Origin: Halobacteriales archaeon QS_9_67_17 | Lineage (GTDB): Archaea > Halobacteriota > Halobacteria > Halobacteriales > Haloarculaceae | Reading direction: 5' to 3' | Assembly: GCA_003023185.1 (NCBI GenBank) | Contig: PXSB01000054.1 | Coordinates: 1 to 58,227 of the forward strand | Length of the DNA: 58,227 nt | Shown: positions 2,335-14,245 of the stretch, piece after piece | Position numbering within the stretch: the first letter of the stretch is position 1 | How the letters are laid out: each line of letters begins with the position of its first letter | Translations under genes and position numbers: made by a program | The notes under the pieces: generated by a model | What the model saw: the letters and a program-made list of their open reading frames with translations, nothing else | Told to the model about the DNA's origin: nothing | The model's database searches: none

Positions 2335-3606
2335 ATGAACGTTCGAGCCGTCGCGGAGCTATCGCCCGACAAGCGCGCGGCGCTGTTCGAGCGGGACGCC
2401 GGCGTCGCCGACGCCCGCGAGACGGCCCGCGAGATCGTCGACCGAGTGCGAACAGAGGGTGATGTCGCCGTCCGTGAGTACGCCGAGGAGTTCGACGGCG
2501 TCTCCGTCGGCAACATCGACGTGACCGACGAGGCCGAACGGGCCGCCGACCATCTCGACGACCGACTGCTCGCACACATTGAGCGTGCGGCCGCGAACGT
2601 CCGCGAGTTCCACGAAGCCCAACTCCCGGACGACTGGACCCGCGAGTTCGACGGCCGAGAGCTGGGCCGGCGCTACCGACCGCTGGAGCGCGTCGGCGCG
2701 TACGTCCCCGGCGGTACCGCCGCCTACCCGTCGTCGGCGCTGATGACCGTCGTTCCGGCGACGGTCGCGGGCGTGGACCACGTCGCCGTCGCGACGCCGC
2801 CCGCCGAGGAACTGAACGACGCCACGCTCGCGGCCATCCATGTCGCCGGCGCGGACGCCGTCTACCAAATCGGGGGTGCGCAGGCGGTCGCCGCGCTCGC
2901 GTACGGTACCGAGACGGTCAGCCGCGTTCAGAAGATCGTCGGCCCGGGCAACCGCTTCGTCACCGCCGCAAAGGCCGAGGTGCGGGCCGACTGCGAGATC
3001 GATTTCCTCGCCGGCCCCTCGGAGATACTGGTGCTCGCCGACGGCGACGCCGACCCAGAACTCGTCGCCGCCGACCTCATCGCGCAGGCCGAACACGACC
3101 CCAACGCGTCCGTCGTCGTCGTCACCCCCGACGACGACCTCGCCACCGCAGTCGCCGACGCCTGCGAGCGGCAGGTCTCCGACCGCGAGCGCACGGACGT
3201 GATAGAGACGGCACTCGGTAACGACGCCTCCGGCGTGTTCACCGCGCGGTCGATGTCGGAGGCCGTCCTCTTCGCCGGCGAGTACGCCGCCGAACACCTC
3301 TCCATTCAGGCCAAAAACGACGAGACGCTCCTCGACCGCATCGGTGCCGGCGGCAGCGTCTTTCTCGGTCCCTACTCGCCCGTCGCAGCCGGCGACTACG
3401 CGACCGGTACGAACCACGTCCTCCCGACCGGTGGCCTCGCGAAGACGACCGGCGGCCTCTCCGTCGACCACTTCCTCGTCTCGCAGACCGTCCAGCGACT
3501 CGACCGCGATGCCCTCGACGACATCGCCGACACCGTCACCGCGCTCGCCGAGGCCGAAGGGTTAGACGCCCACGCCGAGAGCGTCCGAAAGCGGGTCGAC
3601 AAGTAG
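2335..3606 (+). CDS. hisD: Histidinol dehydrogenase
   Basis: A 423-residue enzyme that catalyses the last two steps of histidine synthesis, oxidising L-histidinol to L-histidine with two NAD+ in the cytoplasm. Family blocks are visible: the nucleotide-site region ERVGAYVPGG, the stretch IVGPGNRFVTAAK, AGPSEILVLAD, and the C-terminal NHVLPTGGLAKTTGGLSV. Length matches the family. The ATG at 2335 was chosen because the longer ORF-track start at 1531 is antisense to the DtxR gene. The start sits just downstream of an AT-rich patch near 2300. No other his genes are adjacent, which is common in haloarchaea. Confidence 0.95.
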   Translation: MNVRAVAELSPDKRAALFERDAGVADARETAREIVDRVRTEGDVAVREYAEEFDGVSVGNIDVTDEAERAADHLDDRLLAHIERAAANVREFHEAQLPDDWTREFDGRELGRRYRPLERVGAYVPGGTAAYPSSALMTVVPATVAGVDHVAVATPPAEELNDATLAAIHVAGADAVYQIGGAQAVAALAYGTETVSRVQKIVGPGNRFVTAAKAEVRADCEIDFLAGPSEILVLADGDADPELVAADLIAQAEHDPNASVVVVTPDDDLATAVADACERQVSDRERTDVIETALGNDASGVFTARSMSEAVLFAGEYAAEHLSIQAKNDETLLDRIGAGGSVFLGPYSPVAAGDYATGTNHVLPTGGLAKTTGGLSVDHFLVSQTVQRLDRDALDDIADTVTALAEAEGLDAHAESVRKRVDK

Positions 3607-3626
3607 TACGGCAGGGGACGCTGGAG

Positions 3627-3637
3627 TTTTCTTTTTC
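3627..3637 (+). terminator. Probable oligo-T terminator after hisD
   Basis: A T-rich run (TTTTCTTTTTC) lies about 20 bp after the hisD stop and before the next promoter. Archaeal terminators are often plain oligo-T tracts without a hairpin. Confidence 0.5.
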
Positions 3638-3647
3638 CCGTCGCTTG

Positions 3648-3660
3648 CTTAAATTTATAA
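3648..3660 (+). promoter_or_regulatory. TATA box for the secreted PKD protein
   Basis: CTTAAATTTATAA is centred about 29 bp before the ATG at 3684. That spacing predicts a leaderless or nearly leaderless transcript, the usual arrangement in haloarchaea. Confidence 0.6.
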
Positions 3661-3683
3661 CGTGAGACGAGATCAGATGGCGT

Positions 3684-5408
3684 ATGCGACTGCTCGTCGT
3701 CGTGGGCGTCTGTGCACTGCTGGTGGCGTCGCCCGCGACAGCTACCACGACTGCGGCTCCTACGGGCGAGCCACCCCTCGCCGAGGCCGGCCTCGATCAG
3801 ACCGTCCAGCGGGGCGCGGGGGTCATCCTCGACGCTGGCGGGTCGCGGGACCCGGACGGCGAGATTACCGGCTACGACTGGCAGATCAAAGCACCCAATG
3901 GAACCACAGTTACCCCTGAGTGTTCAGACTGCGAGCAGACCCGGTTCACCGCGGATACCGTTGGCGAATACAACGTGACCGTCGAGGTGACCGACGACGA
4001 CGGCAACACGGCGAACGACACGCTCTACGTGACCGTCGAATCGCCGCCCGATGGCCCCACGGTCTCGCTGTCCGGCGACACGGCTCCGAGTGTCGACGCC
4101 CCCGCCAGATACGACGCGACAGCAACCGCTGGTGACGCGGAACTCAAAACGGTGGAATGGACTGTGGATGGTCAGAATGCCACCGAGCAGGACGTGGGCG
4201 AGGAGTCGGCTACAGAGTCGCTGATTCGCGCGTTCGACGACGCGTCACCGCGAACTGTCCGCGTGACCGTCACCGACGAGGCCGGTCGGACGGCCTCCGA
4301 TGCGCTCCGTATCGATCCGCGAGCGGAGCGTAATGATCGTGGAGCGCCTGAGGGACCACCGGAGTCGACACCGACGCTCGAGGAAATGGACACACCATAC
4401 GAGCCGTGTGCTGAGAATCAAGAACCCGACGTATCAGCGGATGCACGAGTATCAGTGGATATGCGGGCGAGTGGTGAGGTCGCTTACATCTCCTCTGAAC
4501 AGAGTGACCCAGATGGGTCTATCATAGATGTCAGGTACAAGCCGGGGTCCACCGTGCCTGTTCCAGAGGCCGGGAAGACCAAGACAGCCACTGTCACCGT
4601 GGAAGACAACTGCGGAGCAACGGCATCGGACGTGGTGCTCATCGGGCAGGAGACAGACGAGAAAACAATCCAGAAGACAAAGACTCAGGAGGTAGAAAAC
4701 GAGAACGTCATCGAGGTTCGGATTGATGGCTGGGCTGTTGTGGGCAGCAAGATCAGAAGCGGGAAATCAAGTGACCTGCCTGACACCGTATCTGGTCAGG
4801 TTGACCGGGCCCCAGAGATGCGAGCTGTCATTGGGTCAACGGAGTGGACCGTCATCAAAAATCACGTAGGTCACCGTGAGAATACCTCTAAGGACGGCAC
4901 TAGACTGTCTGGAGAGGATGCAACACAGACGGAGATCCAGTACGTCAACGAAACGGAGACAGTAAAGATAACAGAAACGGAACTCAAGACCGATGTCACA
5001 CCGTACGAGAAGAGCGGAAAGACAGTCACAAACGACCTGAACAACGACGGAAAGATCGACATCGTCGACTGGCGACAAAAGTACCCTAGCCACAACACTG
5101 TCGAAGAGACGAACAATGACCACGACGATGATGGTCATAACAGTGTAAAAAGTCTAGAAGAAAAGGACGAGAACAATGACGGCACGGCCGAGGTCTGCTC
5201 GAGGGGGTACTGTATGGACCTCGATACTGACCTAAACAATAACGGAGGAGCAAACAACGACAACGACGGAGGTGCGAACAACAACGGAGGGACGAATAAT
5301 AACAACAACGGAGGAACAGAAGACGATGAACTGAGCGAGCAAGCCACCAACTCCCAGATGAGCGATGAGACGAAAGACGCCTTCGTCAAGTACGCTCGCG
5401 AGAACTGA
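3684..5408 (+). CDS. Secreted PKD-domain surface protein
   Basis: A 574-residue protein starting with a Sec-type signal peptide (MRLLVVVGVCALLVASPATA). Residues about 30-115 are a PKD-like beta-sandwich (AGLDQTVQRGAGVILDAGGS, DPDGEITGYDW, TVTVEVTDDDGNTAND region). A second weaker PKD-like module runs to about residue 210, and a third around 250-320 contains DPDGSI. The last 130 residues are Asn/Asp/Gly-rich with low-complexity NNNGG runs. No transmembrane anchor or sorting motif is visible at the C-terminus. The second half is more AT-rich than its neighbours. The stop codon lies in a perfect hairpin, and the frame remains open after it, so the annotated C-terminus may be truncated. The function is unknown; an extracellular binding or adhesion role is inferred. 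Confidence 0.75.
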   Translation: MRLLVVVGVCALLVASPATATTTAAPTGEPPLAEAGLDQTVQRGAGVILDAGGSRDPDGEITGYDWQIKAPNGTTVTPECSDCEQTRFTADTVGEYNVTVEVTDDDGNTANDTLYVTVESPPDGPTVSLSGDTAPSVDAPARYDATATAGDAELKTVEWTVDGQNATEQDVGEESATESLIRAFDDASPRTVRVTVTDEAGRTASDALRIDPRAERNDRGAPEGPPESTPTLEEMDTPYEPCAENQEPDVSADARVSVDMRASGEVAYISSEQSDPDGSIIDVRYKPGSTVPVPEAGKTKTATVTVEDNCGATASDVVLIGQETDEKTIQKTKTQEVENENVIEVRIDGWAVVGSKIRSGKSSDLPDTVSGQVDRAPEMRAVIGSTEWTVIKNHVGHRENTSKDGTRLSGEDATQTEIQYVNETETVKITETELKTDVTPYEKSGKTVTNDLNNDGKIDIVDWRQKYPSHNTVEETNNDHDDDGHNSVKSLEEKDENNDGTAEVCSRGYCMDLDTDLNNNGGANNDNDGGANNNGGTNNNNNGGTEDDELSEQATNSQMSDETKDAFVKYAREN

Positions 5409-5426
5409 TATGCTACCAGCATATCA
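5406..5426 (+). repeat. Perfect 9-bp inverted repeat overlapping a stop codon
   Basis: TGATATGCT, a 3-base loop ACC, then AGCATATCA. The first three bases are the TGA stop of the secreted PKD gene. It could be a terminator-like hairpin, an insertion scar, or a structure that affects termination of translation. Confidence 0.8.
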
Positions 5427-5513
5427 ACCGCTCGGCTCGACAACGACGGCGAAGATGAAGACTACTCAAACGGGCGCTGTATGAAGCTCGACATCGCCCT
5501 GAACAACGGGTAG
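5409..5513 (+). pseudogene. In-frame downstream extension of the PKD protein (34 codons)
   Basis: In the same frame as the upstream gene, 34 sense codons run to a TAG at 5511-5513. The piece YSNGRCMKLDIALNNG closely resembles the upstream segment CSRGYCMDLDTDLNNNGG. It therefore looks like real, formerly translated sequence: either the original C-terminus cut off by a new stop, or a remnant of a tandem duplicate of the tail. Confidence 0.5.
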
Positions 5514-5642
5514 CTTGGTACAGTAGCCACGAAGATCAATATCTTCGGTCTAACGTTCGATGCCAGATATTTTTATTCCGCCTCCTGAATGAAGAGTAAA
5601 CGCTGCGAAACCACAGTGATACCCTCAGTCCACTACCGTCCC

Positions 5643-6322
5643 ATGTACCGACGTACATTCCTCACCGCGACCGGAGTTAGTCTCACCACCGCGCTTGCCG
5701 GCTGTAGCGACAGTTCGAATCCTGATACATTCTCAGAACCAGCAACGGCAACCCCAACCGTCACTGCGACGGAAACGGATATGACGACCAATACCGGGAC
5801 AGAGGTGATCACCGCAGAAGCACTTGGACTCTCGCGAACCGAACTTAGCGGCGTTTTTCAAAGCTTCCAATCGGCTGACTTCTACTCCGCTGAACGCCGT
5901 TCGATCACTGTCGATTATCAGAGGATCGCAACCTCGGATCACTAACTCATCACAAGCACTCTCGAAGACATTGGAGCCAACATTTAAATAGCCGCTGACC
6001 AGCTTGATCCGGACGATTTCGCGCAGAAGAACGCGAGCGAGCCGCTCCGCGTCGGACAAGACACGCAGCGAAGCAAAGAGTACGCAGATGGACTTCTCCA
6101 CCGTGGCGCCATTACTTACATCACTCCTCCGTGTAAGCAAATTAAGAGCGGTGCGGTTCTCAGTCAACAGAGCGGTCAGACAAGACAAGCGAACACCGTC
6201 TACCGATGGGCTATACGCTTGATGGAAATCTGACGGTCGAGAGTAACTGTTACGATTTCTCAGATATACAGTTGTCTGTACTGCTCGTGGTATTAGTTTT
6301 TATAACGACCGAATGCACATAG
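5643..6322 (+). pseudogene. Tat lipoprotein gene with two in-frame stops and a frameshift
   Basis: Starts MYRRTFLTATGVSLTTALAGC, a twin-arginine signal followed by a lipobox cysteine. The ATG at 5643 was chosen because the signal peptide begins there rather than at the track start 5589. The intact part is 100 residues, with a Thr/Pro-rich linker after the cysteine. A TAA at 5943 is followed in the same frame by 13 codons, a second TAA at 5985, then a long open stretch (QLDPDDFAQKNASEPLRVGQ...) to 6233. A further shift near 6206 would continue into YTLDGNLTVESNCYDFS. This looks like one secreted protein decaying. Its original function is not recognisable. Confidence 0.6.
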
Positions 6323-6654
6323 TACGAACCTTCCTCCGAGAGGACACTGTTTGCCAACTATGGGAAGTTGTACAGATATCGACATTCGAGAACACCCCAG
6401 ACGTAATCCGCAACGTCAGCGAGCGTGACGAGAGTCCGCCATTCGAGAAGCCGCAAAACTGGACGAATCCGGACGAGAACAGAACAGCAGAGCTTGATTC
6501 GGACGTACTGCCGACAACACGACGGGCAAGAGAATCAACTGCCGAAATCCACAGCAAACGTATAGTTCAGGCCACGATGATACTTGGAAAGAGGTCCACC
6601 AATCACAATCGTACGGTGGTTAACTCGGAGCGTTCGCGCCTCGTCAACAATTAA
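6313..6654 (+). CDS. Hypothetical ORF, doubtful
   Basis: A 113-codon ORF starting MHIVRTFLREDTVCQLWEVV. It has no recognisable domain, signal or membrane segment and lies in the AT-richer, decayed stretch. Codon use is less GC-biased than in neighbouring genes. Its 3' end overlaps the end of the GINS gene by 4 bp on the other strand. It may be part of the decayed gene upstream or chance; I keep it because nothing else explains the interval. Confidence 0.2.
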   Translation: MHIVRTFLREDTVCQLWEVVQISTFENTPDVIRNVSERDESPPFEKPQNWTNPDENRTAELDSDVLPTTRRARESTAEIHSKRIVQATMILGKRSTNHNRTVVNSERSRLVNN

Positions 6655-11674: not shown

Positions 11675-14245
11675 TCAGTTCGACGTGCTGTCGTCTGAAT
11701 CGAGGTAGTTCGGGACGCCGTCCCCGTCCGCGTCATCGGTGCCCTCGGTCTCGTCGGACGTGCCATCTCCGTCAGAATCGAGATCCCGATAGTTGGGGAG
11801 GCCGTCGCCGTCGACGTCCTCAGTTCCTTCGACACTATCGGCGATGCCGTCGTTGTCGCTGTCGGTGTCGAGGTAGTCGGCGGGACTGTCCCCGTCGGTG
11901 TCGGTCGTTCCCTCCGTGCTGTCCGTGATCCCGTCACCGTCGGAATCAGTGTCGAGGTAATTCGGAACGTCGTCGCCGTCGGCATCGTTCGTTCCCTCAG
12001 TGGAATCGAGGACACCGTCACCGTCCGAGTCGGCATCGAGATAGTTCGGAGCGCCATCGCCGTCAACGTCGCCGGTCCCTTCGGCACCGTCGAGGAGTTC
12101 GTCTTCGTCGCTATCCGTGTCGAGGTAATTCGGAGTGCTATCGTCGTCGGAGTCGTTGGTCCCCTCGACGCTATCGGCGATGCCGTCACCGTCGGAATCA
12201 GTGTCGAGGTAGTTCTTGATCCCGTCGCTGTCGGCGTCGTTCGTCCCTTCGGTGGCGTCGGGGATGCCGTCACCGTCGTTATCGGTGTCGAGATAGTTCG
12301 GAGCACCGTCGCCGTCGGCATCGTCGGTGCCCTCGGCGCTGTCGGGGATGCCGTCGCCGTCGGCATCGAAGTCCCGGTAGTTGGCGACGCCGTCGCCGTC
12401 AGCATCGTTGGTCCCTTCGATGGCGTCCGAGATGCCGTCGTTGTCGCTGTCAGTCTGGAGGTAGTCGGCGGGACTGTCGCCGTCGGTGTCGGTCGTTCCT
12501 TCCGTGCTGTCAGGAATGCTGTCGCCGTCCGAATCAGTATCTATGAAGTTCGGAGTGCCGTCTTCATCAACGTCGTTGGTCTTCTCGGTGGAGTCGAGGA
12601 TACCATCATCGTCCGAATCGGCATCGAGATAGTTCGGAGCTTCGTCGCCGTCGACATCGTCGGTCCCTTCGACGCTGTCGAGGAGGCCGTCTTCATCACT
12701 GTCGGTGTCGAGGTAATTCGGGGTGCTATCGCCGTCGGTATCATCGGTGCCCTCTGTGCTGTCCGTGATCCCGTCACCATCGGAATCCGTGTCGAGATAG
12801 TTCGGAACCCCGTCGTCGGCATCGTTGGTTCCTTCGGTGGCGTCCGGGATGCCGTCGCCGTCGTTATCGGTGTCGAGATAGTTCGGAACGTCGTCATCGT
12901 CGGCGTCATCGGTCCCTTCGGTGCTGTCCGTGATCCCGTCACCGGCGGAGTCGGCGTCCTGATAGTTGGGGACGCCGTCACCGTCCGCGTCCTCGGTACT
13001 CTCGGTGGCGTCGGGGATGCCATCGTTGTCGCTGTCAGTCTGGAGGTAGTCCGCGGGACTGTCGCCGTCGGTGTCGGTCGTCCCCTCCGTGCTGTCGGGG
13101 ATGCCGTCGCCGTCGGCGTCAGTGTCGAGATAATTCGGAACGCCGTCGCTGTCGGCGTCGTTCGTCCCCTCGGCGGAATCGAGGATACCGTCACCGTCCG
13201 AATCAGCATCTAAAAAGTCGGGGGTTCCGTCCGCGTCGGCGTCGGCATCACCCTCGGTACTGTCGGGGATGGCGTCTTCGTCGCTATCGGCGTCGAGATA
13301 GTTCGGCGTGCTGTCGCCGTCGGCGTCGTCGGTGCCCTCGACGGCGTCGGCGATTCCGTCACCGTCGTTGTCGGTGTCGAGGTAGTTGGGAACGTTGTCG
13401 CCGTCGGCGTCGTTCGTTCCCTCGGTGGAATCGAAGGTGCCGTCGCCGTCTGAGTCGACGTCGCGGTAGTCAGCTGTGCCGTCACCGTCAGCGTCGGTAG
13501 CTCCCTCGGTCGAGTCGCTGATGCCGTCGTCGTCGCTGTCGTCGTCGAGGGCGTCGATGGTCTCGTCACCGTCAGTGTCCACCGCGGAGCCGCCGTCGGT
13601 CTCGACGCCATCGTCGATACCGTCACCGTCCGTGTCGGCGGAGTCGATATCGGTCCCGAGGCTCTCTTCGAGGGAGTCGTCCAGCCCGTCGCCGTCGGTG
13701 TCGTTCGAGTCGTCGCCGTCACCGATGGAGTACGTCGTCGTCGTCGGGTTGTCCGTGCTCTGGACGTTGACGGCGACGTCGACGTCGTAGGTGCCGGAGC
13801 TCTGCGGGTTCTCCGCGGCGTCGTAGACGACGTGCACTACGTCACCTTCCGAGAGGGAGTAGCTGCCGCCGAAACCTATCGCCAGCGTCTCGCCGTTGTT
13901 CGAGCCAGACACGGAGTCGAGGTCGTCCGAGACATCGACGACGGAGCCGTCCGACCGTTCGATCTCGGCCGTGACCACGTCGGACTGGTCGACGTTACTG
14001 ACGGTGCCGTCGAAGTTACCGTCGACGCTGTAGTCGACTTCAACGCTGTTCAGCGAGTTGGAATCGTCGTTCGATTCGACTACCGCCCTGATGTCGTGTG
14101 TCGCTGTCGCACCCGGATCGGCCGGCGAGACTTCGACCGATGCATCGGCCGACGCGACAGCGTTGCCCGCGAGAGCTACACCGCCGACAGCGGAAGCGAT
14201 CAGTATCGTTACCAGGAACACCGCACGGCTTTGTTTTACCATCAT
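11675..14245 (-). CDS. Secreted calcium-binding-type protein with 22 thrombospondin-3-like repeats
   Basis: An 856-residue protein. Residues 1-33 are a Sec signal peptide (hydrophobic LVTILIASAVGGVALAG). Residues about 34-180 are a head domain (SPADPGATATH, FGGSYSLSEGDVVHVVY, VQSTDNPTTTTYSIGD) shared with two nearby proteins. A short Asp-rich linker precedes 22 units of 28 residues (DGDGIPDSTEGTNDADGDGV type). Each unit carries DxDxDG-like motifs of calcium-binding thrombospondin type 3 repeats. There is no C-terminal membrane helix or PGF-type sorting signal; it ends DDSTSN. The start is just downstream of an AT-rich promoter. The role is unknown; a rigid, extended, ion-binding surface or matrix protein is inferred. 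Confidence 0.85.
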   Translation of the reverse strand: MMVKQSRAVFLVTILIASAVGGVALAGNAVASADASVEVSPADPGATATHDIRAVVESNDDSNSLNSVEVDYSVDGNFDGTVSNVDQSDVVTAEIERSDGSVVDVSDDLDSVSGSNNGETLAIGFGGSYSLSEGDVVHVVYDAAENPQSSGTYDVDVAVNVQSTDNPTTTTYSIGDGDDSNDTDGDGLDDSLEESLGTDIDSADTDGDGIDDGVETDGGSAVDTDGDETIDALDDDSDDDGISDSTEGATDADGDGTADYRDVDSDGDGTFDSTEGTNDADGDNVPNYLDTDNDGDGIADAVEGTDDADGDSTPNYLDADSDEDAIPDSTEGDADADADGTPDFLDADSDGDGILDSAEGTNDADSDGVPNYLDTDADGDGIPDSTEGTTDTDGDSPADYLQTDSDNDGIPDATESTEDADGDGVPNYQDADSAGDGITDSTEGTDDADDDDVPNYLDTDNDGDGIPDATEGTNDADDGVPNYLDTDSDGDGITDSTEGTDDTDGDSTPNYLDTDSDEDGLLDSVEGTDDVDGDEAPNYLDADSDDDGILDSTEKTNDVDEDGTPNFIDTDSDGDSIPDSTEGTTDTDGDSPADYLQTDSDNDGISDAIEGTNDADGDGVANYRDFDADGDGIPDSAEGTDDADGDGAPNYLDTDNDGDGIPDATEGTNDADSDGIKNYLDTDSDGDGIADSVEGTNDSDDDSTPNYLDTDSDEDELLDGAEGTGDVDGDGAPNYLDADSDGDGVLDSTEGTNDADGDDVPNYLDTDSDGDGITDSTEGTTDTDGDSPADYLDTDSDNDGIADSVEGTEDVDGDGLPNYRDLDSDGDGTSDETEGTDDADGDGVPNYLDSDDSTSN
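11678..13534 (-). repeat. 22 tandem 84-bp coding repeats with a 7-unit higher-order period
   Basis: The repeats encode 28 residues each; unit 9 is one codon shorter. Comparing unit n with n+7 gives clear matches. Units 6, 13 and 20 share TTDTDGDSPADYL. Units 4, 11 and 18 start DED. Units 7, 14 and 21 start DNDGI and have NYQ/NYR. Units 3, 10 and 17 share DSTPNYLD. The array therefore grew by copying blocks of seven units (about 588 bp), three blocks plus one unit. Confidence 0.85.

Follow-up and report, generated by a model that had tools for sequence, protein, structure and literature searches.

A tail copy probably cut off by a palindrome-borne stop codon in a secreted PKD-domain protein gene of a halophilic archaeon

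The locus and its genes

The window, that is, the whole stretch of DNA analysed here (58,227 nucleotides), comes from Halobacteriales archaeon QS_9_67_17, a draft metagenome bin (G000) in 102 contigs and 67.5% complete. It was compared with five further genomes of its genus (six in total). Between hisD and the GINS gene (window 3600-6651) lies a cassette of three genes, for a PKD-domain protein, a lipoprotein and a CAP protein; the lipoprotein is so named solely from its signal and Cys motif. The features that concern us are the following:

3684..5408, + strand: 574-aa ORF, intact, for a secreted protein with a PKD domain (Pfam PKD families); stop TGA at 5406-5408
5169..5243, + strand: tail copy A, ENNDGTAEVCSRGYCMDLDTDLNNN, translated; 17 of 25 residues in common with the G088 tail
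5235..5326, + strand: Asn/Gly-rich linker with four imperfect 26-nt repeats, resembling the linker that precedes the tail in G088
5328..5405, + strand: segment coding DELSEQATNSQMSDETKDAFVKYAREN; relatives were searched for and none was detectable
5406..5426, + strand: perfect palindrome in the sequence, 9+3+9 (21 nt, 7 codons), whose first codon is the TGA stop
5436..5510, + strand: tail copy B, past the stop and probably untranslated; aligns without gaps to the G088 C-terminus
5511..5513, + strand: TAG, aligned with the TGA stop of the G088 protein
5643..6265, + strand: lipoprotein pseudogene, interrupted in frame by TAA at 5943 and at 5985, with a loss of about 416 bp at 6033/6034 and a frameshifted remnant after that
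6277..6552, + strand: CAP-domain (YkwD-like) pseudogene, two end remnants only, with about 600 bp missing between them

The 574-aa protein begins with a signal-like segment, followed by a PKD domain. Its Pfam PKD matches range in E-value from 1.6e-14 to 7.5e-7, and those to PF22352, PF18911 and PF00801 exceed the curated cut-off. The sole close orthologue of the gene is found in Halobacteriales archaeon QH_7_66_36 (G088), at the same place, with hisD and GINS as flanks and the gene order of the window; the two proteins are 69% identical over residues 1-469. With the C-terminal half as query, G088 was the only match besides the window itself among 394 genomes of the order, and there was no match among plasmids; a scan of genome contigs returned nothing with the window protein, and G088 alone with the alignment as query. 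A further secreted protein, of 856 aa, is encoded at 11675-14245 on the minus strand; to judge from its translation, it carries many DTDGDGI-type repeats and is thrombospondin type 3-like.

The three-gene cassette is present in half of the genus genomes (3/6: the window genome, G086 and G088), and is missing at the hisD-GINS site in G085, G087 and G089; in these three, the distance from hisD to GINS is 38 to 500 bp. The loci compared for its presence or absence were window 3600-6651; L037; L065; and L039, L042 and L043. In G088, the lipoprotein-like and CAP-domain genes stand open and intact 3' of the PKD gene; G086 has a lipoprotein and a CAP gene at the same place, matched over much of their length.

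The stop codon and its surroundings

The TGA that ends the protein opens a perfect inverted repeat (TGATATGCT-ACC-AGCATATCA) of 9 bp with a 3-nt loop. An earlier, sequence-only reading of this DNA had pointed out the repeat, and was right in its geometry and coordinates; the repeat spans 5406-5426. A perfect hairpin of this size is by itself not rare: the window contains three of the 9-bp/3-nt kind, and about 1.3 are expected. The surroundings of the palindrome fold better than their shuffles (z -3.1). The 9-base arms do not recur in the window, and no second copy of the palindrome, with up to three mismatches allowed, was found in the six genus genomes; there is one match among viral contigs, probably by chance.

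The segment preceding the TGA has a GC3 of 0.81, and bases 5328-5435, the roughly 110 before copy B, matched nothing; homology of this stretch to the upstream part of copy A or of G088 was considered and rejected as not significant. A dockerin-like appearance of DLNNDGKIDIVDW was likewise rejected, as there is no Pfam match. The imperfect 26-nt Asn/Gly-coding repeats at 5235-5326 offer a possible substrate for slippage in the tail or for unequal recombination there.

Beyond the TGA, the frame stays open for 34 sense codons, as the same reading had reported; they spell YATSISTARLDNDGEDEDYSNGRCMKLDIALNNG, up to the TAG at 5511-5513. Such a frame would say little on its own; it is the homology that carries the evidence. 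Set against the upstream tail NNDGTAEVCSRGYCMDLDTDLNN, the downstream peptide aligns over 23 residues without a gap, at a score reached by 1 of 3000 residue shuffles; the resemblance claimed earlier between the two is therefore borne out, and it lies in the last 25 codons. Against the G088 protein, the score of the downstream peptide is reached by 0 of 3000 shuffles.

The G088 protein has a single tail, and ends in ...DDDNDGTIEVCSNGYCMNVDTDLHNT. Copy B shares 13 of 25 residues with that tail, codon for codon up to the last; because the alignment is free of gaps to this point, the TAG of the window coincides with the TGA of G088. The DNA match to G088 is moreover collinear over 5438-5660: it starts in copy B, crosses the intergenic region and reaches the next gene. 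The collinear match and the coincident stops together mean that copy B holds the place of the orthologous C-terminus. The sequence after the TGA is thus a genuine remnant of coding sequence that has kept its position, not a product of chance. As at the 3' end of a pseudogene, what lies past the stop is coding in the orthologue, which has neither the hairpin nor the internal stop, and whose downstream genes are open. A C-terminus of common ancestry with G086 (QSTDDYREEF against QMSDETKDAF) was also considered, and rejected, as 418 of 3000 shuffles reach the score.

Constraint, age and divergence

Relative to the G088 tail, copy A is better preserved than copy B. Changes unique to one copy were counted where two of the three tails (A, B and G088) agree, over 25 codons only: at codon positions 1/2/3, these number 2/1/6 in copy A and 4/7/6 in copy B. 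Copy A thus seems to keep a coding-type pattern of substitution, as in translated sequence; copy B looks relaxed over its 25 codons, with changes spread evenly across codon positions as in untranslated sequence. The relative-rate difference in the totals (9 against 17) is not significant alone. Copy B has also lost one of its two cysteines. Its GC3 is still 0.80 (the intergenic region after it has a GC of 0.47); its coding role therefore probably ended fairly recently.

The two copies differ at about 39% of their DNA. Saturation at synonymous sites is much the same in copy A, copy B and the G088 tail (pS 0.67-0.76); the tail duplication is therefore old, perhaps older than the split from G088, and the same saturation does not fix the age of the stop.

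Divergence from G088 is uneven along the locus. For hisD and GINS, synonymous differences per site are 0.16-0.17. Within the PKD gene they climb from about 0.2 in the N-terminal part to 0.4-0.86 in the C-terminal half, and they stand at 0.36-0.50 in the lipoprotein and CAP remnants. The block at about 4400-6500 thus has a more diverged history of its own, by allele exchange or otherwise, and is in decay. For window 4400-6500 as a whole (0.36-0.86), allele exchange in a variable surface-protein cassette is one possibility.

Explanations for the sequence past the stop

One account probably explains the locus: an old tail duplication, the terminal copy of which has been cut off by the palindrome stop and is decaying, within a cassette that is itself decaying. 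The gene product is a haloarchaeal PKD protein that is secreted and whose acidic tail evolves fast. In the window lineage, the tail unit is present twice, with copy A still translated today; copy B, which sits at the orthologous protein end, would formerly have been the terminal segment of the reading frame, translated in the present arrangement. A stop that arose together with the short perfect palindrome before copy B would then have shortened the protein by about 35 codons and left copy B to drift; the truncation would be one lesion among others in a cassette whose three genes, flanked by hisD and GINS, are all affected by decay. The stop may be of recent origin, and the palindrome may stem from an error of local replication, for example a template switch; as the 110 or so bases before copy B have no known relative, there is no ancestor with which to compare them. 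With one close orthologue, the ancestral state is not fixed, and G088 could have lost a copy.

The sequence-only reading had put forward a truncation, a decayed duplicate and a leaky stop. The first two hold up jointly: G088, which has no hairpin, runs past the site of the TGA and ends where copy B ends; the neighbouring genes are decaying; and copy B shows signs of relaxation. The leaky stop finds no support. Orthologues that share the stop and have unrelated sequence beyond it were looked for, and none was found, there being one close orthologue.

A second perspective takes the TGA as the settled end of the protein, and copy B as debris of a rearrangement, either a doubling of the tail or an exchange of alleles, that was at no time translated behind the upstream sequence now present. 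The stretch leading up to the TGA, which has no relatives and yet looks coding right up to the stop (GC3 0.81), agrees with this, as do the even distribution of changes in copy B and the divergence of the C-terminal half, lipoprotein and CAP remnants (pS 0.36-0.86 against 0.16-0.17 in hisD and GINS), as if a block had been exchanged. We nevertheless consider it unlikely, if worth keeping in mind: copy B lies in the frame of the ORF, has a high GC3, and shares its stop position with the orthologue. Much further from probable is programmed readthrough, in which the hairpin makes the TGA leaky and a minor, longer protein includes copy B. In its favour are a homologous extension, an open frame of 34 codons and a stable local hairpin (z -3.1); against it, the stop lies within the stem, not a few bases before it; stop and extension are not conserved, as the only close orthologue has neither hairpin nor stop; copy B looks relaxed, in a decaying cassette; and no tRNA-Sec scores above the curated cut-off in the six genus genomes, of which the window's own is 67.5% complete. 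It is a shade less probable again that a haloarchaeal surface protein is made here in two forms that end differently, and that hairpin-assisted UGA readthrough into the second tail repeat yields the longer one.

The hairpin might instead be functional, for instance as a transcription terminator or as an operator, and close the transcript ahead of the dead genes. Its perfect symmetry, its location at the stop codon and a fold better than that of shuffles speak for this, but no T-run follows it, it is absent from the terminator scan, it has no Rfam match, and it is a single copy among the six genomes at up to three mismatches; we regard this as very improbable. An assembly artefact, with tail repeats collapsed or misjoined in a bin 67.5% complete, is barely credible: a draft in 102 contigs with short imperfect direct repeats in the region invites the suspicion, but the repeats are short, about 39% of the DNA differs between the copies, and the lesions in the genes downstream are numerous and independent.

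Comparison with known systems

A 2021 review (PMC8211752) gives selenocysteine and pyrrolysine as the only cases in which stop readthrough has been shown in Archaea. The present locus resembles those cases in that a homologous frame stays open after the stop and RNA structure is present; it differs in that there is no conservation, no decoding machinery is seen, and the stop is inside the stem. A two-ended protein here, if true, would be archaeal readthrough outside selenocysteine and pyrrolysine. As a caution, an open frame and a hairpin past a stop need not mean recoding.

Template switching (quasipalindrome mutation) is a known source of perfect hairpins (PMC8794818, PMC7202029), and can make them in one step (PMC8794818). 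What the locus shares with such palindromes is an inverted repeat that is short and perfect, has a tiny loop and sits at a locally changed site; the difference is that no relative of the stretch before copy B was found to serve as ancestor.

For the preferred account, that of a duplicated tail cut off and decaying, the closest comparison is with truncated genes and pseudogenes of bacteria and archaea, which likewise show a premature stop, a homologous unread 3' remnant, and neighbours with stops and deletions. The locus has the look of ordinary gene decay, not of a new mode of reading a stop codon, and its significance is mostly local, with little import beyond it. It departs from the usual pseudogene in that the main ORF stays open over a great length, with constraint on the N-terminal part, and only the repeated tail is cut; it would be a small, clear example of a repeat tail trimmed as a variable surface-protein cassette is lost in a halophilic archaeon.
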